64,000 nt of DNA, taken from contig JAUYAK010000010.1 in the NCBI GenBank assembly GCA_030693515.1, positions 62,001 to 126,000 of the forward strand, in the 5' to 3' direction. Both the position numbers and the translations under genes were made by a program. Positions 14,476-58,780 of the stretch are shown piece by piece (the first letter of the stretch is position 1; the number at the start of each line of letters is the position of its first letter). The DNA comes from Opitutaceae bacterium. Its GTDB lineage: Bacteria; Verrucomicrobiota; Verrucomicrobiia; Opitutales; Opitutaceae. Below the pieces are notes generated by a model, which ran no database searches, was not told the DNA's origin, and was given only the letters and a program-made list of their open reading frames with translations.

Positions 14476-14546
14476 GTGGGAGGGGCTTTATGCCCCGACT
14501 CACGCTGCTAACCGCGCAACGCGTCGGGGCATAAAGCCCCTCCCAC
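14476..14546. repeat. Perfect 24-bp inverted repeat after pgi (GTGGGAGGGGCTTTATG family)
   Basis: Arms 14476-14499 and 14523-14546 are exact reverse complements, separated by 23 nt. The arm opens GTGGGAGGGGCTTTATG and ends CCCCGAC. No T-run follows. It lies between pgi and the coiled-coil gene, which starts 18 nt later, so it may also sit in that gene's leader. Confidence 0.9.
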
Positions 14547-16379: not shown

Positions 16380-17312
16380 ATGTCTGGCCCCGTCGCCGTC
16401 ATCGATATCGGCAGCAACTCGATCAAAGTGCTCGTCGCCGTGCGCGGCGCCGATGGTTCGGTGCTGCCGCTGCACGTGCGCTCGCTCGATACGCGCATCA
16501 GCGCCGGCCTCAGCCAGGCCGAGCCGCGCCTGGGCGAAGAAGGCATGGCGCGCGGGCTCGAGGCCATCCGGACGCTGCTCGCTGATGCCAACCGCTTCTC
16601 CGCCGAAAAAATCGTGCTCGTCGCGACCAGCGCCGTGCGCGACGCCCGCAACGGCGCCGATTTCCGCGCTCGTGTCCAGGCCGCCACCGGCCACGCCATC
16701 CGCATCCTCACCGGCGAGGAAGAGGCCAACCTCATCGGCCGCGGCCTCACCTGCGATCCCGCGCTGCGCGGCTTGCGCGATTTCTACGTCTTCGATCTCG
16801 GCGGCGGCAGCCTCGAGTGCCTGGCGTTTCGTGACCGGTGCATCGCGCAGGCCGCAAGCCTCCAGCTCGGCTGCGTGCGGCTTACCGAGAAGTTCGTCGC
16901 CGATCCCACGATGCCCCTGACACCCGCCGCGCGGGCCGCGATTGCCACGCACACCCGCGCCGAGCTGACCCGCGTGGGTTTCCGCCTCACGCCGACCGCC
17001 GAAGCCATCGGCACGGGCGGCACGGTGGCCACCGCACGCGCCATCCTCGGGGCGCGCCAAGGCTTGTCCCTCGGTCAGACCGATCCGCTGATCTCACTGG
17101 CGCAGATGAGAGAGATGCTCGCCTGGCTGGGCGCGCTCCCGCTCGCCGAGCGCCAGCGCATCCCCGGCCTGCCCGCCGCGCGCGCGGACGTGTTTCCCAC
17201 GGCGCTCGTCACGTTCATCGCCGTCGCCGAACTCGGCGGCTTTTCGAGCTTCCGTAATTCCCTCTACAACCTCCGCTACGGCTTGGCGGACGCGACGCTG
17301 GGTGATTCGTAG
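16380..17312 (+). CDS. Exopolyphosphatase / guanosine pentaphosphatase (Ppx/GppA) family
   Basis: ASKHA-fold phosphatase acting on polyphosphate or pppGpp. The ATG at 16380 (MSGPVAVIDIGSNSIKVLV) gives 310 aa, the short two-domain form. Motifs: DIGSNSIK (P-loop-like), SAVRDARNG, ILTGEEEANLIGRG, FDLGGGSLECL, GTGGTVATA. The second domain contains Y-less IPGLPAARADVFPTALV, matching the usual IPGLxxxRADVI. Its TAG stop (17310-17312) is part of the palindromic element at 17309-17372. Ppx and GppA cannot be told apart here. Confidence 0.93.
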   Translation: MSGPVAVIDIGSNSIKVLVAVRGADGSVLPLHVRSLDTRISAGLSQAEPRLGEEGMARGLEAIRTLLADANRFSAEKIVLVATSAVRDARNGADFRARVQAATGHAIRILTGEEEANLIGRGLTCDPALRGLRDFYVFDLGGGSLECLAFRDRCIAQAASLQLGCVRLTEKFVADPTMPLTPAARAAIATHTRAELTRVGFRLTPTAEAIGTGGTVATARAILGARQGLSLGQTDPLISLAQMREMLAWLGALPLAERQRIPGLPAARADVFPTALVTFIAVAELGGFSSFRNSLYNLRYGLADATLGDS

Positions 17313-17372
17313 GGCTCGACCTTGGTCGGCGCCCATCCGGGGATTCGCGGCCCGAGCAAGCTCGGGCCCTAC
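17309..17372. repeat. Palindromic element (GTAGGGC..GGGCCCTAC) that provides the stop codons of both convergent genes
   Basis: Begins GTAGGGCTCGACCTTGGTCG and ends CCCGAGCAAGCTCGGGCCCTAC, with an inner hairpin CCCGAGC/GCTCGGG. The plus-strand TAG at 17310-17312 ends the Ppx/GppA gene and the minus-strand TAG at 17369-17371 ends the RluD-family gene. It is related to the elements at 51101-51148, 56425-56472 and 20591-20783. Confidence 0.85.
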
Positions 17373-20590: not shown

Positions 20591-20792
20591 GTAGGGCCTG
20601 AACTGGCTCAGGCCAGGCCTCAGTGGGCGTCGAAAAAGGGTTCAGTTGTTTGTCATTCTGAGCGGAGCGAAGAATCCAGCAGGAGCCTCGCCCCTCTCAA
20701 AGCGCCGCGAGGATCGAAGTGGATTCTTCGCTCCGCTCAGAATGACAGTCCTTTTAGACATCCTCTCAGCAAGCTGAGGCCCTTGTTGCTAC
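20591..20792. repeat. Nested palindromic elements between the M29 aminopeptidase gene and lpxK
   Basis: A GTAGGGCCTGA-family element appears split. Its left half is 20591-20623 (GTAGGGCCTGAACTGG... to GGCCTCAG) and its right half is 20765-20792 (CTCAGCAAGCTGAGGCCC...GCTAC). Between them lies a different palindrome with perfect 28-bp arms 20651-20678 and 20720-20747 (TGTCATTCTGAGCGG...). CTCAG occurs at both junctions (20619-20623, 20765-20769), like a 5-bp target duplication. Together this fills the gap 20533-20797, in which I see no gene. Confidence 0.78.
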
Positions 20793-26105: not shown

Positions 26106-26177
26106 GTAGGGCGCCTGTGACCCGCCCTCGGTTCGGACACTCAAAGCGCAAAAGGGCGGGTCACAGACCCGCCCTAC
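26106..26177. repeat. Palindromic element (AGGGCGGGTCACAGACC family), copy 1
   Basis: Begins GTAGGGCGCCTGTGACCCGCCCT and ends with the AGGGCGGGTCACAGACC..GCCCTAC arm (about 26153-26177). The 3' arm is shared over at least 25 nt with the element at 53681-53749. It lies between topB and the next gene's GTG start. Confidence 0.85.
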
Positions 26178-28357: not shown

Positions 28358-28840
28358 ATGGCCGCAAAGAAGAAGACCTGGCGCGAAAAGCTCGCCGACA
28401 GCAAAGACCTGCCGAAGGTCGTGCCGATTCCCCCCGCCGGGCGGAAACGGTGGGGCGGCGCGACCCTCGCGATCCCGGCACCGCGCGACGTCGACGCCCT
28501 GATGCGGACCGTCCCCAAGGGCCGCGTGACGACCATCAACGAGCTGCGCGCCGTCATCGCGAAAAAACACCGCGCCGCCGCCGGCTGCCCAATCACCACG
28601 GGCATCTTTTCCTGGATCGCGGCCCAAGCGGCGGAGGAAGCGCTCACCGCGGGCGAGCGCGCGCCGACGCCCTATTGGCGCACGCTCAAGAAGGGCGGCG
28701 AACTGAATCCCAAATACCCTGGCGGCACCGCCGCACTGGAGCGCAAGCTCGCCGCCGAGGGCCACACCTTCGTGCGTAAGGGTGCGCGCGTGCTGGTCGC
28801 AAATTTGGAGCAGGTGCTGTATTCCCCGACCGCCCGGTAG
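28358..28840 (+). CDS. MGMT-like DNA-binding protein (alkyltransferase-like)
   Basis: 160 aa. Residues 45-145 match the winged-helix DNA-binding domain of O6-alkylguanine DNA alkyltransferases (MRTVPKGRVTTINELRAVIA ... GIFSWIAAQA ... TPYWRTLKKGGELNPKYPGG ... LERKLAAEGHTF). The catalytic PCHR is replaced by PYWR, so it cannot act as an alkyl acceptor but may bind damaged bases, as alkyltransferase-like proteins do. The ATG directly follows the T-tract of the fba terminator. Its TAG stop comes from a palindromic element. The N-terminal 30 residues are basic and unique. Confidence 0.7.
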   Translation: MAAKKKTWREKLADSKDLPKVVPIPPAGRKRWGGATLAIPAPRDVDALMRTVPKGRVTTINELRAVIAKKHRAAAGCPITTGIFSWIAAQAAEEALTAGERAPTPYWRTLKKGGELNPKYPGGTAALERKLAAEGHTFVRKGARVLVANLEQVLYSPTAR

Positions 28841-28913
28841 GAGCTTGCTTGCAAGCGATTCAGCGCGTTCGCATTCGCGGCCGATAGCCCATCGCCTGCA
28901 AGCAGGCTCCTAC
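28837..28913. repeat. Palindromic element (GTAGGAGC..GCTCCTAC family)
   Basis: Starts GTAGGAGCTTGCTTGCAAGCGAT and ends ATCGCCTGCAAGCAGGCTCCTAC; it is outwardly palindromic with two inner hairpins (CTTGC/GCAAG, CCTGC/GCAGG). Its TAG (28838-28840) terminates the preceding gene. Family members: 19365-19414 and, more distantly, 37131-37196. Confidence 0.87.
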
Positions 28914-49590: not shown

Positions 49591-50913
49591 CTATTTCACG
49601 CGCGGTCCAGCGCGTAGGGCGAAAACCGTGCCTTTCTCGCCGCCGACGATGATCAACCCGGCGCCAAAGACCGGCGACGCCACGAGCGCCTCGCCCAGGT
49701 CAAGCTGCCAGAGCTCCGTGCCGCGATCCAAGCTCGCGGCGTAGAGGCGTCCGTCGGTCGAGCCGAAGAGCACCCCGTCGGAAAAAATAACGGGCGATCC
49801 CTCGACGCGCCCACCCGTTTTGAAGGTCCAGACCCCCTGCCCGCTCGCGCGATCGATCGCGTGGAGGTGCTTATCGCGCGAGCCGATGATCACGAGGCGA
49901 TCATTGACCGCGGGCGAACTGAAGAACGGAAGCTGCCGATCCTGGTAGGTCCAGGCGACTTTGCCACCGGCGACATCGAAGGCGACCGCCTCGTTGGCAT
50001 AGTTGCCGCAGAAGGCCATCGTGCCATGCGTCGCGATCGAGGCGGGGATCTGCGCGCTCGTGGGAATTTTGTGCACGAGCTGGCCATCGGCGAGCTGGAC
50101 GACGTGGAGCTGCGCATCGCAGCCGCCGAAGACGAGCCAGCGCCCATCGACGACGCCCGGTGAGCCGTTGATGTAGTCGTCGGTCTTGTAGCTCCAGACG
50201 AGTTTGCCGTCGGCCGCGTTGAGCACGCGCGTGGTGCCGTCGTAACCATTGAGGAGCACCCAATCGGCACCGGGCGTGGCGGAGCCGGCGGGAGCCTTGA
50301 TCGTGATCGCGCCGGAGCTGATCTTCTCCTCGCTGGCAAATTCCCAGACCGGCGCGCCGGTGTCGGCCGCGAGGGCGTAGAGTTTCCCGTCGTTGGAGGA
50401 GAGAAACACTTTTCCCGCGGCGATGGCGGGCGCGGCCATGATCGCATCCTTGGTCTCGAAGCGCCAGACCTCCTTGCCGGTATCGGCCGCGAGGCAGTGG
50501 AGCGTGCCCTTGATCGTGCCGACGAAGACGCGACCGCCGGCGACCGAGGCTTCGGCTTGGATGCCGCCGTTGGCGGCAAAGGTCCACGCCGTCACCGGAT
50601 CAGCGGGGAGCTTCGCGGCGATGCTGCCGCTGAGGGCAGGGCCGCCCCGCGTCATGGGCCAGGAGATTTCAGGCGCGGGGGCAGGCTCGGATTTTTTAGC
50701 GGAGTCGGTGGCGGAGCGGTCGGAGCAGGCGGTGAGAAAGAAGAACGAGAGAAGGAGAGCGAGGGAGACGGAGAGAGGCGACGTGCGATGGCAGAAAGTC
50801 GCCCGAGGCTTCAGCCCGTGTCCGGAACTGCCAAGCGCAAGCTGAAGCCTCGCGCTACCAAGCGGGCCGGGCCCCGGAGCGAAGCGGACATTATTTTTCC
50901 ATTCCAAGCGCAT
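49591..50913 (-). CDS. PQQ-like beta-propeller lipoprotein (start obscured by a palindrome)
   Basis: At least seven propeller blades with repeats such as RVFVGTIKGTLHCLAADTGKEVWRFETKD, KVFLSSNDGKLYALAADTGAPVWEFAS and RLVIIGSRDKHLHAIDRASGQGVWTFKTGG. A lipoprotein signal SLALLLSFFFLTAC lies near 50700-50770. The only ATG upstream in frame is at 50913, inside the end of the Fe-alcohol dehydrogenase gene, and would add about 47 residues, part of them coded by a palindromic element (50805-50851). The true start is uncertain. Function: likely surface or periplasmic scaffold, or BamB-like. Confidence 0.8.
   Translation of the reverse strand: MRLEWKNNVRFAPGPGPLGSARLQLALGSSGHGLKPRATFCHRTSPLSVSLALLLSFFFLTACSDRSATDSAKKSEPAPAPEISWPMTRGGPALSGSIAAKLPADPVTAWTFAANGGIQAEASVAGGRVFVGTIKGTLHCLAADTGKEVWRFETKDAIMAAPAIAAGKVFLSSNDGKLYALAADTGAPVWEFASEEKISSGAITIKAPAGSATPGADWVLLNGYDGTTRVLNAADGKLVWSYKTDDYINGSPGVVDGRWLVFGGCDAQLHVVQLADGQLVHKIPTSAQIPASIATHGTMAFCGNYANEAVAFDVAGGKVAWTYQDRQLPFFSSPAVNDRLVIIGSRDKHLHAIDRASGQGVWTFKTGGRVEGSPVIFSDGVLFGSTDGRLYAASLDRGTELWQLDLGEALVASPVFGAGLIIVGGEKGTVFALRAGPRVK
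50805..50851. repeat. Palindromic GAGGCTTCAGC element at the 5' end of the propeller lipoprotein gene
   Basis: GAGGCTTCAGC (50805-50815) pairs with GCTGAAGCCTC (50841-50851). It lies between the stop of the Fe-alcohol dehydrogenase gene and the lipoprotein signal sequence, and is stop-free in the frame of the lipoprotein gene. Confidence 0.75.
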
Positions 50914-52081
50914 GGCGGTAGAGTGCCGCAAAGTCGGCGGCTTGCAATGGCCGGGGGTTGAACTTGCCGGTCCACTGGCGCGTCGCGTCGTCGGCGAGGG
51001 CGGCCACGTCCACGGCGCGGGCGTCGAAGGCCGGCAGGAGACTGGCGGAGACGAGGTCGGCGACCCACGCAATCAGCGGCGCAGCTCCAGCCGTGGTTTC
51101 GTAGGGCCTGACCTGGGTCAGGCCGGCCTGAGCAAGCTCAGGCCCTACGGGGAGCAGCCCGGCGAAATGGGCGTAGATGGCGGCGACGGCGGCATCGGCG
51201 GCGTTGAAACGCATCACCTGCGGCAGCATGAGCGCGACGGCGTGGCCGTGGGTGACACCGTGACGGGCCGTGAGCGGATTGGCGGTGGCGTGCGCGGCAC
51301 CGAGCATGGAGTTCTCAATCGCGAGACCGGCGAGCGCGGCGCCGAGCAGCATGCGGCCGCGATCCTCGGCGGTCGCCTCGCCGACGATCACGCGGGCAAT
51401 GGCGGCGGAGAGCTGGCGGAACGACGCCTCGGAATATGCGGCCGAGATCGGGTTGCGCTTTGACGTGACCGCGGACTCGAGCGCGTGGGCGAGCGCATCG
51501 AGGCCGGTAAGAATCGCAACCGCACGCGGCTGCGTGGCCGTAAGCTCGGGATCCAGGATCGCGGCGCGCGCGAGGGCCTTGGGATCGCCACAGGCCATTT
51601 TCTCGTGCGTGTCGTCGCGGCTCACGAGGGCGTAGGACTGGCACTCGCTGCCCGTGCCGGCGGTGGTGGGCACGGCGATGAGCGGGAGCAGCGGCTTCGT
51701 CGCCTTGCCGTAGCCGTGGTAGTCGCGCATCGCGCCACCGTTGGTGAGGAGAAAGTTCGTAGCCTTCGCCGTGTCCATGCTGCTGCCGCCGCCGAGGGCG
51801 ACGAAGCAGTCGAACTTCGCGGCCCGCGCCGCGTCGCGGCACGCGGCGGCGTCTGACTCGGAGGGATTCTCGTGCGCGTGATCGTAGAGCGTGACCGGGA
51901 TGCCGGCGGCCTCGAGCAACGCCGTGGCGCGCGCGGCGTGACCGGCACGGATCAGGCCGGAGTCGGTGACGAGAAAGACCGACGTGGCTCCCGCCTCGCG
52001 CACAAGTGCGGGCAGTTCACCGAGCGTGCCGGGGCCGAAGACGATCTTGGGCGACGGACGGGAGGCGAAGGGAGCGGGCAT
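50891..52081 (-). CDS. Iron-containing alcohol dehydrogenase with an inserted palindrome-coded peptide
   Basis: 396 aa type III alcohol dehydrogenase, ATG 52081 (MPAPFASRPSPKIVFGPGTL). The NAD-binding region GGGSSMDTAKAT is at 98-108, VPTTAGTGSECQSYALVS follows, and metal ligands are in GLDALAHALES (Asp194, His199), TARHGVTHGHAVAL (His274 and His278/280). Residues 312-327 (VGPELAQAGLTQVRPY) are entirely encoded by the 48-nt palindrome at 51101-51148 and interrupt a surface loop between C-terminal helices. It is downstream of the reductase and ligase genes, so it probably reduces the aldehyde they make to an alcohol. Confidence 0.9.
   Translation of the reverse strand: MPAPFASRPSPKIVFGPGTLGELPALVREAGATSVFLVTDSGLIRAGHAARATALLEAAGIPVTLYDHAHENPSESDAAACRDAARAAKFDCFVALGGGSSMDTAKATNFLLTNGGAMRDYHGYGKATKPLLPLIAVPTTAGTGSECQSYALVSRDDTHEKMACGDPKALARAAILDPELTATQPRAVAILTGLDALAHALESAVTSKRNPISAAYSEASFRQLSAAIARVIVGEATAEDRGRMLLGAALAGLAIENSMLGAAHATANPLTARHGVTHGHAVALMLPQVMRFNAADAAVAAIYAHFAGLLPVGPELAQAGLTQVRPYETTAGAAPLIAWVADLVSASLLPAFDARAVDVAALADDATRQWTGKFNPRPLQAADFAALYRHALGMEK
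51101..51148. repeat. 48-nt palindromic element inside the Fe-alcohol dehydrogenase gene, in frame
   Basis: GTAGGGCC ... GGCCCTAC outer arms and two inner hairpins (GGCCTGACC/GGTCAGGCC and GGCCTGAGC/GCTCAGGCC). Its 48 nt equal 16 codons. Only the frame beginning GTA GGG CCT is free of stops; the others hit TAG or TGA at once. It encodes VGPELAQAGLTQVRPY on the gene strand and VGPDLGQAGLSKLRPY on the other. Sister element at 56425-56472. Confidence 0.92.
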
Positions 52082-52101
52082 TACGAAGATGGTATTTTTG
52101 T

Positions 52102-52200
52102 CACAGAGGACACCGAGCCCAGACACAGAGGGCACGGAGAAACCCAACTTTCATTCTCTGTGAACTCCGTGGCAGTGCTCTGTGCTCTCTGTGTCTCACG
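52102..52200. repeat. Palindromic CACAGAGGGCACGGAG element
   Basis: AGACACAGAGGGCACGGAG (52121-52139) pairs with 52178-52196 at 17 of 19 positions, embedded in a longer CACAGAG-rich stretch. It fills the gap between the reductase stop and the Fe-alcohol dehydrogenase start, where no gene is seen. Confidence 0.75.
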
Positions 52201-52209
52201 GTTTGAAAC

Positions 52210-53643
52210 TCAGACCGCGACCAAGTCGCCCTGGAGAGCGCGGCGGCGGTAGAGGAATTCGAAGAGATTGCCCTCGTGCGGCTGCTCCCACTGCACGCGC
52301 ATCGTGGAATACGGCCCGAGGTTCAGCCGCTCGATGTTGGTGCTCGTCATGAGATCGGCGCACCACTCGCGGTCGTGCGTGAAGGCCGAGACGACGAGGG
52401 ACTCGCCGATTTGGTCGATCATTTTTTCCTGCGGGACCTGGAGGATGCTCGCGAAGGGGAACATGAACTCCGTGTTGGCCAGCGGATGATCGAGGTCGTC
52501 GCACACGATGAGCGTGGGGCGCAGGAAGGTCTGGCCGTGCAGCTCGGCGAGGCGGGGACCCTTGCGGTATTTGGCCGTGAGGTCCGTGGCGCCGGGTGTT
52601 TTCAGGAGTTCCTCGATGCGCTCGTCGATGCCCTTGCCCATTTTGGGATTGGCGAAGCCGCAAAGGATGGCGGCGGGATCGTTGCGCGCGAGGGGCTCGA
52701 TGGCGGCAAGCTTGCGCGCGAGCGCGTCGGCGAGGTCATCGCGATTGCGCCCCATGAGGACAGAGGAGCAATTGATGCAACTGCGGCCGCCGTTGGCGGA
52801 GATGGCGTTGACGATTACGTCGAGGTGCTTCTCCCAGTCGTCGGCGTAATCGTCGCCGATCAGGATTTTGCTGCGGCCGGAGCCGTGGACCTGGATGTGG
52901 CGGTAAGGCGCGTATTTTTTCAGCGTGGTATCGTTGCCAAACGCGATGGCGCGGCCGGTGCCGAACAGGAGCTGGTCGCCGCCGTCGTGGGTCGTCGGAT
53001 AAAAGCCGAAGGCCTCGCGCGGGAAGCCCGCCGCGATCATCGCCTGGATGAGGCGGAAGGGCGTGAGCGGGTCCTCGCGGCCGGGCTTGAGCACGACGGG
53101 AATCTTCATCGCGAGCGCGGGGAGCCAGAGCGAATTCACGCCCGGGGAATTGCTCGGAAGGAGCACGCCGAGGCTGTCGGTCTGCGGGAAAAAATTTACG
53201 TCGAGCCCGTCCTGGCGGACAACGCCGGTGTCGAAGAGCGCGTGCGGAAGGCCGCGCGTGAGGCCGGCGATCACGGCGCGGATGTTCGACATCGCGGCGT
53301 GGACCTTGGACATGTTGGAGCGGCCGAGGCTGTGCGGCAGGCCGGTGAGCTGCGAGAGCGCGGCGGCGTAGTCGGCGGGTGATTGCAGCCGGTCGCCGTC
53401 GCCCCACGGGAGATTGCCGTGGAGATAGAGTTCCGCGGCCTTCTCCATGTAGCCGACGAGCGTCTCGCACGGAATGGCACGGAGGGCCTCGCCGGATTTA
53501 GCGAGGTGCCGGAGGTCGCGGCGGATGAGGCCGGAGTTGGCGACGCTAACCTCGAGGGTTTCGCCACCGACGGAGTGCCGCTGGGTGTCGAGACTGCGGT
53601 AGGCCTCGCCGAGGCGGAGGATGGGAATGTGGATGGCGCTCAT
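52210..53643 (-). CDS. Aldehyde dehydrogenase-fold acyl reductase
   Basis: 477 aa of the ALDH superfamily, in a divergent subgroup starting PILRLGEAYRSLDTQRH. Catalytic Cys in NGGRSCINCSSVLMGRN, Rossmann region LGVLLPSNSPGVNSLWLPALAMKIPVVLKPGREDPLTPFRLI, and FEFLYRRRALQGDL at the end. Together with the upstream adenylating enzyme and the downstream Fe-alcohol dehydrogenase it fits a LuxE/LuxC-like route: acid activation, reduction to aldehyde, then alcohol. Whether it acts on acyl-CoA, acyl-AMP or free aldehyde is not determined. Confidence 0.83.
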   Translation of the reverse strand: MSAIHIPILRLGEAYRSLDTQRHSVGGETLEVSVANSGLIRRDLRHLAKSGEALRAIPCETLVGYMEKAAELYLHGNLPWGDGDRLQSPADYAAALSQLTGLPHSLGRSNMSKVHAAMSNIRAVIAGLTRGLPHALFDTGVVRQDGLDVNFFPQTDSLGVLLPSNSPGVNSLWLPALAMKIPVVLKPGREDPLTPFRLIQAMIAAGFPREAFGFYPTTHDGGDQLLFGTGRAIAFGNDTTLKKYAPYRHIQVHGSGRSKILIGDDYADDWEKHLDVIVNAISANGGRSCINCSSVLMGRNRDDLADALARKLAAIEPLARNDPAAILCGFANPKMGKGIDERIEELLKTPGATDLTAKYRKGPRLAELHGQTFLRPTLIVCDDLDHPLANTEFMFPFASILQVPQEKMIDQIGESLVVSAFTHDREWCADLMTSTNIERLNLGPYSTMRVQWEQPHEGNLFEFLYRRRALQGDLVAV

Positions 53644-53680
53644 GGCGGAGACAGCAGAGGAGTGGTCGGAGGCTTAAAGC

Positions 53681-53749
53681 AGGGCGGGTCTGTGAACCGC
53701 CCTTGGGACGCAATGGGTGTTCGAGGGCGGGTCACAGACCCGCCCTACT
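53681..53749. repeat. Palindromic element (AGGGCGGGTCACAGACC family), copy 2
   Basis: Left arm 53681-53703 (AGGGCGGGTCTGTGAACCGC..) and right arm 53724-53749. The right arm is identical over at least 25 nt to the 3' arm of the element at 26106-26177. It is located between the adenylating enzyme gene (stop at 53752) and the reductase start (53643). Confidence 0.87.
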
Positions 53750-53751
53750 AT

Positions 53752-54825
53752 TCAATAAACGCCCTCGATGATCGTCTTGGTGAGGGATTGGAAGGGGCGG
53801 ACGTCGCCGACGCCGTCCCACGGGAATTCGTCGCACGGGGGACGGCGGATGGCTTCGTCGCGCTCGAGGAAGCGCGGGACGAAAAATTCCTTCGTCATCG
53901 TCGTGAGCTCGACGCGGCCATACTCGCCGTAGGGCATCAGTTCCTCGGGTTTGTCGGGGTTGACGATGCGGAGCGTGGCGCGCGGCTGCGGCGCGTAGTA
54001 GGTGAGGCTGTAGTTGTCGGCCTTCGTGATTTTTTTGCTGATGGCGAGGCCCATGAGGGTGTTGCCGTAGGTGGGGGCGAAGTTGATTTTGCCCTCGAGC
54101 ACTTCCTCGACGACGAAGCGGACATACTGGGGCGTCATCGTGGTGCCGCCGACGAACACGCCCTTCAGGCCCGCCTTCACGAGTGACATGCGCTCGGCGA
54201 GATTCTCGAGCAAGCGCGGGGTCGTGAACATGTTCACGATCTTGCGGTGGCGCATGATCGTGGCGGCCTGGTCGATGACGTGCTCCTGGTATTTGCGCGC
54301 CATCGCCATCTCGCCGGTGCCGATCAGGCGTTTCACGAAGCGCGGATCGAGGTCCACGAAGTAGCAGGAATCGCCGCGATAGTTGGCGAGATGTTCGACG
54401 GCGAGGCGGAGGCGGCGCGGGCCGGTGGGGCCAACCATGAGCCAGTTGCCCTTGGGGAAAAATTTGGGGCCGTAGTGGTCGCTGTATTCCTCGTAGTCGG
54501 TCTTGTAGTCATCCCAGCCGACGCGCTGCTTGGGCATGCCGGTGGTGCCGCCGGTCTCGAAGACATTGTAAGGGCGCTTGGCGTAGGCCTTGGGCACGAA
54601 GCGCTCGGGCTGCTCGACGCGGAGCACATCGTCGTCGAAGTGCGGAAATTTCTTCGCGATGTCGGCGAAGCACGTGATCTCCTTGCGCGGATCCCACTTG
54701 GCGGCCTTGGCCCACGTGAGCCAGTAATCGCAGCCCGTCTCGGGCGAGAAGTGCCACTTGATCATCTTCCGGGTCCACGTATCGAGCGCGGCCTGGGCTT
54801 GGGGAGGAGTGAGTTTGCTGGACAT
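53752..54825 (-). CDS. LuxE/EhpF-like acid-adenylating enzyme
   Basis: 357 aa from ATG 54825 (MSSKLTPPQAQAALDTWTRKMIKWHF). The core FETGGTTGMPKQRVGWDDYKTDYEEY is the phosphate loop of ANL-type adenylating enzymes, here of the small group that includes LuxE and phenazine-pathway EhpF. ANYRGDSCYFVDLDPRFVKRLIG, MFTTPRLLENLAERMSLVKAGLKGVFVGGTTMTPQYVRFV and FAPTYGNTLMGLA follow. The large C-terminal lid of full ANL enzymes is reduced. Genes for a reductase and an alcohol dehydrogenase follow on the same strand. Confidence 0.8.
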   Translation of the reverse strand: MSSKLTPPQAQAALDTWTRKMIKWHFSPETGCDYWLTWAKAAKWDPRKEITCFADIAKKFPHFDDDVLRVEQPERFVPKAYAKRPYNVFETGGTTGMPKQRVGWDDYKTDYEEYSDHYGPKFFPKGNWLMVGPTGPRRLRLAVEHLANYRGDSCYFVDLDPRFVKRLIGTGEMAMARKYQEHVIDQAATIMRHRKIVNMFTTPRLLENLAERMSLVKAGLKGVFVGGTTMTPQYVRFVVEEVLEGKINFAPTYGNTLMGLAISKKITKADNYSLTYYAPQPRATLRIVNPDKPEELMPYGEYGRVELTTMTKEFFVPRFLERDEAIRRPPCDEFPWDGVGDVRPFQSLTKTIIEGVY

Positions 54826-54909
54826 GGAGTGGGAGGAAACGTGGAAAAACTGATGGATGCACACCGCCCGCGCGTCTGTCAAAAAACGCCGGGCCCAAGG
54901 CGCGGGATT

Positions 54910-56505
54910 TTACTTCGCGATCGCAAACACGTGGGTGATGGTCGCGACGAAGAGGGTGTCGTTGGCGATGACGGGCGAGGAGTAGATGGGGCTGTAGAAC
55001 TCCACCTTGCCGAGCAGCTTCTTCTCGCGGCCGGCGGCGAGGACGACCAGTTCGCCGTCCTCGGTGCCGCAGTAAACCTTGCCGTCGGCGACGAGCGTCG
55101 AGGACCAGATGCGGCTGTTGGTGGGGTGCATCCACTGGGTCTTGCCGGTGGCGGCGTCGAGGCAGTGGATGTTGCCGTTGTATTCGGCGATGTAGATGAG
55201 GCCGTCGGCGATGCTGGGCGTGCAGATGGTGCGGCCGATGGACTTGTTGGTCCAGATGGGCTTGCCCGTGATGTCGCCGCGCCCGGTGAGATCGATGCAG
55301 CTGAACATGCCGATGCCATCGCCGTGCTCGGGGTCCTGGCCGATGGACATGTAGGCGCGGCCATCCTGGGCGACGACCGTGCAGATGAGTTCGCTGGGCC
55401 CGTTGAACGTGGCGTATTTGAGCGGCTGGCCCTCCTTGGTGCGATACTCGGGCGGGTTGGCGTCGTAGCGGAGGAGCTCCTTGAGGACCGGCGTGCCATC
55501 CTTGTCCAGCACGGGCACGGGATCGTAAGCGTAGCACCAGCCGTCGCCGCCGCCCCAGACGATAACCCCCTTGCCGTTCACCGTGGTGAACGAGGGCGAA
55601 CTCCAGCTGCAGTGCAGCACGCGCTTGGAAACGCCGGAAACTTCCTCGCCGACGATCTTGCCGTCGCGCTTGTCGAGCACGGCGAGCGCGGGGGCGAAGG
55701 GCGCGGGGATGTTGAGGTGGGACCAATCGACGCCGTTGGAGGTGGCGATGTAGAGGCGGTCGCCGACGATGAGCGGCGAGCAGCTCGAAATATTGTGCGG
55801 GAAGATGCCGAGCTCGGTGCGCACGTCGCTCACCCAGAGGATGTCGGCGGTCTGCGCGGTCACGTCGATGGGCTTGCCCTCGGTGGCGCCAAACTTGGCC
55901 TCGTCGGCGAAGCCCTGGTTGCCGTCGGCCATGCCCTTCACGTCGAAGCACACGACCTCGCCGCGGTTGGTGACGACATAGCCGCGATCGCCCTCGATGG
56001 TGGGAGAGGAGCAGATGCCGACGTATTCCCAGTCGCTCACCTTGCCGGAGCCGAGCTTGGGGACGACGAGCTGCCAGAGAAATTCGCCCGTCTTCTCGTC
56101 AAAGCACATCAGCACGCCACGGTCACCGTGCTGCTTGGGATCGCGGGGCGACTCGTTGTTGGTGCCGACATAGACGCGGCCACCGGCGACGACCGGGGTG
56201 CCGTAGGCCTGGGAGCCGAGCTTGGCGACCCAGCGCACGTGCTTGGTCGACTTGGGATCGATGGTCTCGGTCTTGGGGAGAAACTTGCCGGCGGAGATCG
56301 CCTCGGGAGCCGGGAGGCCCTTGGAGGTCGAGACCATGTTGCGCGAAGGCGAACCGCCCCACATGGGCCAGTCGGCGGCGCCAGCAAGGGCGGAAGTGAG
56401 ACCAAAGGCGAAGGCGAGGGCAGCGTAGGGCCTCAGCTTGCTGAGGCCGGCCTGACCAAGGTCAGGCCCTACACGAGACGGGGAAAGCGAAGGGACGTTA
56501 TTCAT
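54910..56505 (-). CDS. Secreted PQQ-like beta-propeller protein with a palindrome-coded insertion in its signal peptide
   Basis: 531 aa. The N-terminus reads MNNVPSLSPSR, then VGPDLGQAGLSKLRPY (residues 12-27, encoded by the palindrome at 56425-56472), then AALAFAFGLTSALAGAADWPMWGG; without the insert the signal peptide is textbook. Propeller repeats from 45 on include WVAKLGSQAYGTPVVAGGRVYVGTNN, GVLMCFDEKTGEFLWQLVVP, GLIYIAEYNGNIHCLDAATGKTQWMHP and KVYCGTEDGELVVLAAGREKKLLGK. Start ATG overlaps the end of the upstream propeller gene by 8 nt. No catalytic Asp/Glu set of true quinoproteins could be confirmed. Confidence 0.87.
   Translation of the reverse strand: MNNVPSLSPSRVGPDLGQAGLSKLRPYAALAFAFGLTSALAGAADWPMWGGSPSRNMVSTSKGLPAPEAISAGKFLPKTETIDPKSTKHVRWVAKLGSQAYGTPVVAGGRVYVGTNNESPRDPKQHGDRGVLMCFDEKTGEFLWQLVVPKLGSGKVSDWEYVGICSSPTIEGDRGYVVTNRGEVVCFDVKGMADGNQGFADEAKFGATEGKPIDVTAQTADILWVSDVRTELGIFPHNISSCSPLIVGDRLYIATSNGVDWSHLNIPAPFAPALAVLDKRDGKIVGEEVSGVSKRVLHCSWSSPSFTTVNGKGVIVWGGGDGWCYAYDPVPVLDKDGTPVLKELLRYDANPPEYRTKEGQPLKYATFNGPSELICTVVAQDGRAYMSIGQDPEHGDGIGMFSCIDLTGRGDITGKPIWTNKSIGRTICTPSIADGLIYIAEYNGNIHCLDAATGKTQWMHPTNSRIWSSTLVADGKVYCGTEDGELVVLAAGREKKLLGKVEFYSPIYSSPVIANDTLFVATITHVFAIAK
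56425..56472. repeat. 48-nt palindromic element inside a signal-peptide coding region, in frame
   Basis: Same length, architecture and reading phase as 51101-51148. It matches the plus-strand reading of that element at 45 of 48 positions; the three differences are one loop base and one compensated pair, and all are synonymous in the shared frame. It encodes VGPDLGQAGLSKLRPY (residues 12-27 of the protein). Confidence 0.92.
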
Positions 56506-58780
56506 TGGCGGTGATGGCGAGGTTGTCGATGAACACGCGCTTCATGCTTTGCGGCGAGAAGGCGTAGACGGCAGGCGCGCCGTGCTGGTGAAGTTTGGTC
56601 TGCCGGGCTTCGATGGTCCACTTCGCCGGCTCGGGTTCGCCACGCGGCCACAGTTTGGCGCGGACGAAACCGCCCTCCCCTGTTTTGTCGCGATCAACGC
56701 GGGTTTTCAGGTGATACCACGTGTTGGCGGTGGCTTCGAAGGGCACGGTCACGTGGAAACGCTCGTGGGTGCTGGAGACCTCGAGCACGCGGTTGTTGGC
56801 GGCGAGCACGAAGAGGTAGCGCTGGTTGACGAGGCCCACATTGGACATCACGCGGCGATTGCCGTCTGTCATGACGTCGGCCTCGAAGGTATAGTTCTTC
56901 ATGTCGGGCCCGCCGATGAAGTTCATCGTGCGCATGAACAGGAGCGAATCGAGGCGGTTGCCGGCAAACTTGTTGCCGTCTTTCTCGAAGATGTGCCATT
57001 TCACGCGCGCGCCGAGCCACGCGAGCGGCGGAAAGCCGACGTCGGTGCCTTCGTTGTTTTTCTGGCCGAGCGGCAGCGACTCGAAATCCTCCCGGTGCCC
57101 GTAGGTCGCGATTACGCGGCCGCGGGTGGTGCCGGCGAGGTTGTTCCACTTGGCCTGGATCGATCCGGCGGAGAGCTTGGCCGCGGGGCCGGCCTTGATG
57201 GTGGGGCCCGTGAGTTCGGCATCCACCTCGGCCTTCACGAGCGCGGTCGGCGGGACAAACTTGGCGAAGGTCGCCTCCGTCGTGACATCGCGGACACGGC
57301 GGCCCGTGGCATCGAGGCCCCAGACCTTGAGGGTCTGCGCCTGGCCCGGGTAGAGCGCGAACTCGGCCGGCACGACCTGCAGCGCCGCAATCGGCGCGGT
57401 CGAGAGCTTGGAGGGCGCGGGCGGCGGCACAGCGGCCGGGATGATCGGCGCGGTGGCCTTGGGGCCGAAGCTGTGCAGGCCATCCTTGGTGAAGATGAAA
57501 ATCGAATCGCCGTAGAACGCCGGGGCGCCGAGGCAGACCGTGCCAGGTTCCATCCTGTTGTTCGAGACGATGACAGGCTTGCCGCTTTTCACGTCGATGA
57601 CGAAGACATGGCCCTCATGCATCGGGACGTAGAAGCGCCCGTCGGCGTAGGCCGGCGAGGCGTGCACTTGGTCGGCGCCGAGCTTCTCGCTCCACAGCGT
57701 CCGGCCGGTGGCGGCATCGGCGCAGAGGAAGTTGCCGTTGGAAATCGTGGCGTAAACCCGGCCGTCGACGAGCAACGGCGAACTGGTGAAGGCGCTGAAC
57801 TCGTCGTTGCGCCAGAGTTCCGCGTCCTTGCCGAGAATCACCGGCTTAGGGCCGGTGGGATACTCGGTCGGAATCTTCAAGGCGACGAGGCGGCCCTGCG
57901 TGGAGGCGTCGATGTTCTCCTTGCCATGAATCGCGATGAGCTTGCCGGGGCCGTCGAGCAGCACATCCGAATTGAGGCCGCCGTTGGAAAACTTGAAGCG
58001 CCAGACCGGCTCGCCCGTGCGGGCATTGACGCAGACGACATGGCCGCAGCCCGTGCCGACATAGAAAACCCGATGTTCGCCAAGGTCGGCAAACAGCGGC
58101 GCGCCGAAGGGATTGTCGATCGGTTCGAGCCCCGGGGTGCTCGACCACACGAGTTCGCCCGTGCGCTTGTCGAACGCGTAGTAGCGGCTGCGCGCCGGGC
58201 CATCCGTGCCCCAGTTGGCGGTCACGCCCTTCGCAATCATGAGGTCACCGTCCGTGATGAGGGAGCCCGTGCGTCCGTTGGGAAACGTGAGGCGGCCGAA
58301 CTCCTCCATCATCGAGCGCTGCCAGATGATTTTCCCGTCGCGCGTGAGGGCCGTGATGACGCCACCGACGGACTCGCAGTAAACGTTGCCTGTCTCCGCA
58401 TCGACGTAGGGCGCGCCGATGGCGTAGCGGTTGTAAACGGTGTCGCTGATGAAATCCTTGAAACGATGCTCCCAGAGTTTCGCGCCCGTCTTCACGTCGA
58501 GGGCGATGATGGCCTCCTCGACGTCCTCGCCGTTCTCCCCGTAGTAGCACATGGCAAACACCCGCCCATCGGCGACGACCGGCGTGCCCGCGCCGTGAGC
58601 CTTGAAGGTCCACCGGTGGTTGGGCCCGCCGAGCGCGAGATCGGTCGTGAGCTTCTGCTTTGCAGGGGAAACGCCATCTGCCGTCGGCCCGCGCCAGTGC
58701 AGCCAGCCGGAAGCGGCCGACAACGACGAAACCAGGCCGAGGGCCGCACTGAAGACAAGGAGACGGGCGGAAGTGCTCAT
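56498..58780 (-). CDS. Secreted PQQ-like beta-propeller with C-terminal lectin-like domain
   Basis: 760 aa from ATG 58780 with signal peptide (MSTSARLLVFSAALGLVSSLSAA). Propeller blades span about 25-420 (HGAGTPVVADGRVFAMCYYGENGEDVEEAIIALDVKTGAKLWEHRF; VYCESVGGVITALTRDGKIIWQR; RFYVPMHEGHVFVIDVKSGKPVI). A linker PIIPAAVPPPAPSKLS and an Ig-like stretch (AEFALYPGQAQTLKVWGLDATGRRVRDVTTEATF) follow. A C-terminal LamG/DUF1080-like jelly roll starts near 560 (FESLPLGQKNNEG ... FIDNLAITANE). It may bind a carbohydrate or product outside the cytoplasm. Start of the next propeller gene overlaps its end. Confidence 0.87.
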   Translation of the reverse strand: MSTSARLLVFSAALGLVSSLSAASGWLHWRGPTADGVSPAKQKLTTDLALGGPNHRWTFKAHGAGTPVVADGRVFAMCYYGENGEDVEEAIIALDVKTGAKLWEHRFKDFISDTVYNRYAIGAPYVDAETGNVYCESVGGVITALTRDGKIIWQRSMMEEFGRLTFPNGRTGSLITDGDLMIAKGVTANWGTDGPARSRYYAFDKRTGELVWSSTPGLEPIDNPFGAPLFADLGEHRVFYVGTGCGHVVCVNARTGEPVWRFKFSNGGLNSDVLLDGPGKLIAIHGKENIDASTQGRLVALKIPTEYPTGPKPVILGKDAELWRNDEFSAFTSSPLLVDGRVYATISNGNFLCADAATGRTLWSEKLGADQVHASPAYADGRFYVPMHEGHVFVIDVKSGKPVIVSNNRMEPGTVCLGAPAFYGDSIFIFTKDGLHSFGPKATAPIIPAAVPPPAPSKLSTAPIAALQVVPAEFALYPGQAQTLKVWGLDATGRRVRDVTTEATFAKFVPPTALVKAEVDAELTGPTIKAGPAAKLSAGSIQAKWNNLAGTTRGRVIATYGHREDFESLPLGQKNNEGTDVGFPPLAWLGARVKWHIFEKDGNKFAGNRLDSLLFMRTMNFIGGPDMKNYTFEADVMTDGNRRVMSNVGLVNQRYLFVLAANNRVLEVSSTHERFHVTVPFEATANTWYHLKTRVDRDKTGEGGFVRAKLWPRGEPEPAKWTIEARQTKLHQHGAPAVYAFSPQSMKRVFIDNLAITANE

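Follow-up and report, generated by a model that had tools for sequence, protein, structure and literature searches.

GTAG REPs, REPINs and BIMEs have been described as palindromes of about 20 nt with a GTAG tag, which form inverted doublets, lie mostly near the 3' ends of genes, supply TAG stop codons and accompany a transposase gene that is itself flanked by REPs (PMC3733652 and PMC3116915, sections consulted). According to the consulted sections of PMC3733652, intragenic GTAG REPs are most frequent in Opitutus terrae, two Xanthomonas species carry different REPs at about the same recB site, and intragenic REPs at N-termini were often judged to be untranslated. Mobile palindromes that are read in frame inside host proteins are also known as Rickettsia palindromic elements (RPEs), which measure about 150 bp and encode a conserved peptide (PMC10969869, sections consulted). 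In Yersinia, the small mobile repeat YPAL/RU-2 (168 bp) at YPO1552 constitutes part of a predicted signal peptide, supplies a hydrophobic cluster and is thought to create a new exported protein (PMC2229807, sections consulted). Hence, going by the consulted sections of PMC3733652 and PMC2229807, intragenic REPs, REPs at the same site and a repeat within a signal peptide are each known. Repeated REP insertion into one signal peptide is reported in none of the consulted sections of PMC3733652, PMC3116915, PMC10969869, PMC2229807 and PMC8266576; nor was repeated REP occupation of one signal-peptide n-region found in the literature to the extent consulted, with single N-terminal cases possible in the supplement of PMC3733652.

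Here, we analysed a window of 64,000 nt from the genome of an Opitutaceae bacterium (GCA_030693515.1, contig JAUYAK010000010.1, positions 62,001 to 126,000), in which a REP doublet lies within the signal peptide of an exported beta-propeller protein. Like the described GTAG REPs, it combines the tag, the palindrome and the inverted arrangement, and its family is found mostly near gene 3' ends, supplies TAG stops and has a transposase gene flanked by REPs. In contrast to known REPs, we deal with a zero-spacer 48-nt doublet in a signal peptide, whose translation is shown by excluding other starts, and with REPs that, across the genus, differ between the orthologues of one signal peptide although they lie at almost the same position. 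The in-frame reading of a mobile palindrome is shared with RPEs, but the element is shorter and a RAYT (REP-associated transposase) gene is present in the genome; classification as an RPE was rejected in view of the length of 48 nt and of a peptide that differs between orthologous copies. Compared to YPAL/RU-2, only the n-region of an established gene is lengthened, and the site was hit repeatedly. What is new here is that one signal-peptide n-region is occupied repeatedly by different REPs in orthologues. Given that the hairpins of related species differ while their positions nearly coincide, this n-region looks like a repeatedly used landing place for mobile hairpin DNA.

A REPIN translated within the signal peptide of a probably exported protein

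The first-pass annotation had described a hairpin element that is read in frame within a signal peptide, and its coordinates, element, frame and peptide were all confirmed by the sequence (Table 1). On the plus strand, the element consists of GTAGGGCCTCAGCTTGCTGAGGCC followed by GGCCTGACCAAGGTCAGGCCCTAC, with the unit boundary between the two. Both 24-nt units carry the GTAG tetranucleotide directly 5' of the palindrome, which makes the element a doublet of GTAG-type REPs, i.e. a REPIN or minimal BIME. The predicted RNA fold of the doublet reaches -32.9 and -31.6 kcal/mol (one value per strand). Identity with a known Rfam RNA element was rejected, as a search of window positions 50700-56700 returned two matches at E 0.9, far below gathering scores and located away from the doublet.

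Table 1 Features of the gene cluster with the REP doublets (positions in the window)
Feature	Position	Strand	Remarks
Exported PQQ-type beta-propeller protein (host gene), 531 aa	54910..56505	-	PF13360; single usable start ATG 56505
Upstream PQQ-type propeller gene, 760 aa	56498..58780	-	Stop TAA 56498-56500 overlaps host-gene start (ATGAATAA)
REP doublet (REPIN)	56425..56472	-	48 nt, zero spacer, two inverted GTAG-tagged 24-nt palindromes; read as VGPDLGQAGLSKLRPY
REP unit 1	56425..56448	+	GTAG + palindrome, CCTCAGC TT GCTGAGG type
REP unit 2	56449..56472	-	GTAG + palindrome, CCTGACC TT GGTCAGG type
First copy, same doublet type	51101..51148	-	In frame inside Fe-ADH, about residues 312-327; common to sister genome G018
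Fe-ADH gene hosting the first copy	50891..52081	-	PF00465, PF25137
Lipoprotein beta-propeller gene	49591..50913	-	Start ATG 50913 or another in-frame start, 51072 to 50907
Decayed REP doublet of another family (GTAGCGCGAGGCTTCAGC type)	50797..50858 (borders approximate)	-	n-region of the lipoprotein gene 3' of ADH

The host protein begins with MNNVPSLSPSR-VGPDLGQAGLSKLRPY-AALAFAFGLTSALAGAADWP, the doublet encoding residues 12-27 between MNNVPSLSPSR and the hydrophobic stretch of the signal peptide. As the upstream gene and the host gene overlap, there is no intergenic spacer, and the REPIN starts 25 nt after the upstream stop. The host frame opens at 56541 and offers a single ATG, GTG or TTG before the mature protein; none of these codons occurs within the insert or from there to the mature protein, while a CTG is found inside the insert at 56436. 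Because the only such start stands upstream of the insert, the insert must be translated, and translation through it is obligatory given ATG, GTG or TTG starts. The encoded VGPDLGQAGLSKLRPY places a K and an R ahead of the hydrophobic core.

The REP family and its putative transposase

Exact units of the family were found in eight of 54 searched genomes, with 27 in the genome of the window (G000), 25 in a sister genome of the same genus (G018), eight in G001, five in G016, two in G033 and one each in G005, G030 and G035; a reversed control pattern gave no match in any genome, and the repetition is thus well above what chance would give. With 65 of the 70 exact units in four congeners, the family is lineage-specific. 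A looser pattern (up to three mismatches) matched 144 places, compared to 51 for the control. When 38 stretches around the listed family matches were passed through a stricter finder, 33 groups remained, among them 17 inverted ('><') doublets. Twenty groups were called intergenic, at least four supply the TAG stop of a gene (C75:4258, window 17349, C121:20141 and C125) and three lie with certainty in frame inside genes (51101, 56425 and C108:201445). Together with a fourth group on contig C17, which is probably genic too, this describes a mostly extragenic family to which the 56425 copy is an exception. A doublet on contig C112, first called intergenic, terminates a reading frame with its TAG; judging by the letters, this frame appears TPR-like. 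The idea that zero-spacer 48-mers are a gene-adapted form was rejected, as the C112 doublet is a third one and sits at a gene end. Other REP families found in genes differ from this family in unit length.

Within 21 distinct units, drawn from 47 listed with zero or one mismatch, each of the stem pairs from 7:22 to 13:16 is intact in 20-21 cases, and pairs 10:19 and 12:17 show two-sided G-C/C-G swaps, at positions where pairing was permitted, though not demanded, by the search pattern. Selection on structure, one of the options raised in the first-pass annotation, is hence supported at family level by stem covariation and by a compensated change between the orthologous ADH copies (see below). 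What selects the hairpin is probably the transposase, although a role for the host is possible as well.

A candidate for this transposase is a 188-aa ORF on contig C70 (L083:2124-2690), located between back-to-back REPs of the family at 2014-2071 and 2699-2756, so that the genome has a RAYT gene with REPs of this family on both sides. The ORF matches PF01797 (Y1_Tnp) above the Pfam cut-off and NF047646 (REP_Tyr_transpos) with E 7e-17 and 61.6 bits, a score below the NCBIfam cut-off of 80. Going by this arrangement, the putative RAYT probably moves the family REPs. In total, the genome contains seven Y1_Tnp matches (on C109, C42, C25, C89, C44, C120 and C70), one of them with an internal stop; among these genes, the one on C70 alone was paired with its REPs.

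Also suggested earlier was a recent spread of the element, and this is borne out by the concentration of exact units in the four congeners, by the RAYT gene between units and by the absence of the insert from the sister genome.

Frame and peptide of the two window copies

The doublet at 56425 had been found to differ from the plus strand of 51101-51148 at three of 48 positions, namely one loop base and one compensated pair, with the same peptide encoded. This count is exact, but the plus strand of 51101-51148 is the non-coding strand of its Fe-ADH host. Comparing coding strand with coding strand, the two copies differ at seven of 48 bases and five of 16 residues (VGPELAQAGLTQVRPY and VGPDLGQAGLSKLRPY).

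Both copies are in frame, their coding strands reading VGPxLxQAGLxxxRPY. When both strands of 14 family doublets were read, frame 0 (GTA GGG) proved open in 21 of the 28 readings, frame +1 in four and frame +2 in one; the copies agree in frame because stop codons leave one frame open. The earlier proposal to look for genic copies that are random in frame or mostly disruptive gave no refutation as worded: the three surely genic groups of the 33 are non-disruptive and share one frame. With hardly any other frame open, however, their agreement says nothing in favour of the peptide. This calls for caution in general, as a shared frame is not evidence of peptide selection wherever stop codons leave one frame open.

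The ADH copy is shared with the sister genome with identical borders and missing from 11 other orthologues in an alignment of 14 rows, of which one (G014) was taken in the wrong frame and is uninformative. Between G000 and G018, three bases of this copy differ, all of them nonsynonymous, and two form a compensated stem pair, which indicates that it is the hairpin that is preserved and not the peptide; alternatively, this pattern could stem from gene conversion by other members of the family. Selection on coding, likewise considered in the first-pass annotation, fails on these data, given a forced frame and an orthologous pair with three nonsynonymous and no synonymous changes.

One n-region, different REPs

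The leaders of 28 orthologue rows were compared by eye, and REP labels were also set by eye, those of L100, L101 and L103 being less certain. Different REPs were found in the same n-region in 12 of these rows. The start overlaps the upstream gene in 25 rows, 16 of which have leaders of 66-84 nt with no REP visible by eye, while the other nine have leaders of 135-189 nt with REPs or REP-like repeats. In the sister genome, the propeller protein is 93% identical and has a 75-nt leader without the insert. In eight placeable rows (L086, L088, L090, L091, L092, L094, L215 and L225), the REP tag lies 30-43 nt past the A of the ATG. Six of the 12 REP-bearing rows (L086, L090, L092, L094, L225 and L101) have a start before the REP and none inside or after it, five (L088, L215, L091, L103 and L100) have a start codon inside or after the REP, and L213 begins at a contig edge.

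Seven leading REP units share 4-14 of 16 compared bases and are mostly of different kinds, although the leading REPs are identical in L090 and L091 as well as in L094 and L225, and those of L088, L090 and L213 are similar to one another. The peptides at this place differ in other species. A tag-free search detected eight inverted repeats in 3,143 nt of leaders, compared to an average of 1.0 in shuffled leaders; the 40,551 nt of mature coding sequence contained 16, none of them GTAG-ended by eye. On a maximum-likelihood tree of the mature proteins without leaders (30 rows given, 29 built, including the very long row L107), REP presence or absence requires six changes, four of them forced by well-supported branches, and the family labels require 11, or eight without L100, L101 and L103. 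The sister pair G000/G018 (fork 100/100) is itself discordant for the insert.

A genome sample was used to see whether signal peptides in general show the pattern. Applying loose hairpin and signal-peptide rules (hydropathy scale entered by hand) to 2.46 Mb of four genomes, 20 of 328 GTAG hairpins (6.1%) fell into predicted n-regions, compared to 2.8-4.8% for five control tags (13/470, 17/543, 13/407, 14/294 and 18/590). Nine of the 20 sit in genes of this cluster, one of them (the ADH copy of G018) by virtue of an over-extended ORF, and no excess of GTAG hairpins in signal peptides was found outside the cluster in this sample. A general preference of REPs for signal peptides is hence not supported; we claim a local hot spot, plus one probable case elsewhere, and no general rule. 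A doublet census with up to three mismatches yielded 61 and nine GTAG doublets, with several control tags equal or higher; the contigs giving the 61 were partly picked for carrying this gene cluster, and the 400-kb part giving the nine, none of which lies inside a called gene, includes 60 kb (C112) taken to resolve one 48-mer. With at most one mismatch, five samples gave 15, 15, 1, 3 and 6 GTAG doublets, compared to 0, 0, 0, 1 and 1 for GATG and up to eight in one sample for other tags (GTGG). Some of the non-GTAG doublets may be REPs with other tags.

Why does a REPIN survive in a signal peptide?

The most convincing reading, which we hold with high confidence, is that a REPIN moved by a RAYT inserted behind the upstream stop and hence into the n-region of the overlapping gene, where an in-frame insert is tolerated. 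The REPIN would be a mobile hairpin that is not autonomous and is probably copied by the RAYT encoded in the same genome; no target-site duplication was noticed, short of a systematic search. REPINs persist mostly by gene ends, right after stop codons. As the two genes overlap, the first sequence past the upstream stop is the n-region of the next gene's signal peptide. Such a region should accommodate inserts, its only requirements being a start, a degree of positive charge and an unhindered transition into the hydrophobic core. This REPIN would have survived because it has a stop-free frame and a length divisible by three, adds K and R and leaves the core intact. With frame, charge and core kept, the host protein is probably exported with an n-region longer by 16 residues. 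Most likely, the insert is tolerated without being useful; tolerance of the n-region and neutrality of the insert are what its position and composition suggest, and the hairpin would be kept by selection on the REPIN itself. This offers a concrete survival route for mobile hairpins in a genome with little intergenic space: a tolerant n-region beside a stop, read through. Since orthologues carry different REPs at almost the same place, the site can also be used to test whether hairpins between cistrons are tolerated or selected, a long-standing question about REPs.

More tentatively, and as a possibility that we consider rather improbable, n-regions after an overlapping upstream stop might be reusable REPIN docking sites, in which families replace each other or re-land and the hairpin marks the cistron boundary. 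If true, the export tag of the host protein grows and shrinks, and the order in which REPIN families followed one another within the genus is naturally recorded at one address.

A role for the host, which can coexist with tolerated insertion, appears unlikely. An RNA hairpin between the cistrons would mark the upstream 3' end and tune either the stability of the mRNA or how the next gene is translated, with the signal peptide simply being the place that accommodates it. The placement of the tag 30-43 nt past the A of the ATG in the eight placeable rows, the repetition of the pattern by the lipoprotein gene after the ADH stop and a predicted fold of about -32 kcal/mol would fit such a role, and REP function in mRNA stability is a stated hypothesis in the consulted sections of PMC3733652. 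Against it, the 16 of 25 overlapping-start rows without a visible REP have to be set. Ribosomes, moreover, open hairpins in translated stretches, which also counts against a host role.

Even less probable is an untranslated leader, i.e. a wrongly assumed start that leaves the REPIN outside the coding sequence. Many N-terminal REPs were judged possibly extragenic in the consulted sections of PMC3733652, and the five REP-bearing rows with a start inside or after the REP are in line with this view. For the host gene, however, the insert and the stretch up to the mature protein offer no start other than the CTG, and the upstream ATG is the overlapping start in 25 of the 28 rows, so that the explanation is rejected here, yet not for L088, L091, L100, L103 and L215. 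That the peptide VGPDLGQAGLSKLRPY is itself selected, e.g. as a special n-region, is barely credible and was rejected: the common frame of both window copies and the added K and R speak for it, but frame 0 is normally the only one open, the orthologous ADH copies differ by nonsynonymous changes alone and the peptides found there in other species are different.

Further REPs in genes and at shared sites

Different REPs next to an upstream stop were also seen in the lipoprotein gene of the cluster, whose start overlaps the end of the ADH gene and whose n-region contains the decayed doublet of another family. No ATG, GTG or TTG was found inside this doublet or from there to the lipobox LTAC, and an intact version is present in G018 (L152:13184-13244). 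Sixteen loci of this gene were given, four of them without a motif match; in the 12 inspected by eye, REP-like doublets or units were seen in seven (one type in G000 and G018, others in G001, G003, G017, G019 and G023), none was visible in four (G006, G008, G012 and G024), and one (G014) is cut by a contig edge.

The probable case outside the cluster is the family doublet C17:6275-6334 (L036:1501-1560), which immediately precedes the hydrophobic part of a lipoprotein leader (VGPQLAEAFRDRGLTKVRPC-NVRIALVSIAVACLAGC). Two in-frame starts, a GTG and a TTG, precede the doublet, and a second GTG follows it; this last one would leave ten residues before the cysteine and no basic residue. The REP-less orthologue of G001 reads MKRRRILCLSFVAALAFLAGC (eight loci given, six without a motif match). 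Taken together, the start positions and this orthologue make translation through the C17 doublet likely.

Use of one spot by two doublet types was also observed outside signal peptides, at one internal site of an orthologous membrane protein, with the GTAGCGGCGG type in G000 (L325:15234-15307) and the GTAGCCCGCC/GTAGCCCTGC type in G018 (L291:12773-12848). A doublet of the GTAGCGGCGG type also opens contig C89 of G000 (L326:1-80) and is followed by a hydrophobic export-type stretch (SLRLFLALLACTACAQ); this is possibly a further translated n-region insert, whose start would fall past the contig edge. In-frame doublets of two REP types occur in two long G000 genes (L319:8878-8951 and L133:15445-15507) of 924 and 1126 aa by gene calls, stop counted. 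In G018, an in-frame doublet-like insert lies at L299:15935-15986 in a 1921-aa protein, which we take to be UvrA-like. The uvrA genes of O. terrae carry REP inserts (PMC3733652, sections consulted). At window positions 17309-17372, a REP doublet located between two convergent genes provides the stops of both with its own TAGs, a phenomenon known from the consulted sections of PMC3733652. Further REP-like inverted repeats, some of them GGAG-tagged, were observed at 14479-14543, 20651-20747, 26106-26177 and 28837-28913, which suggests several co-resident families.
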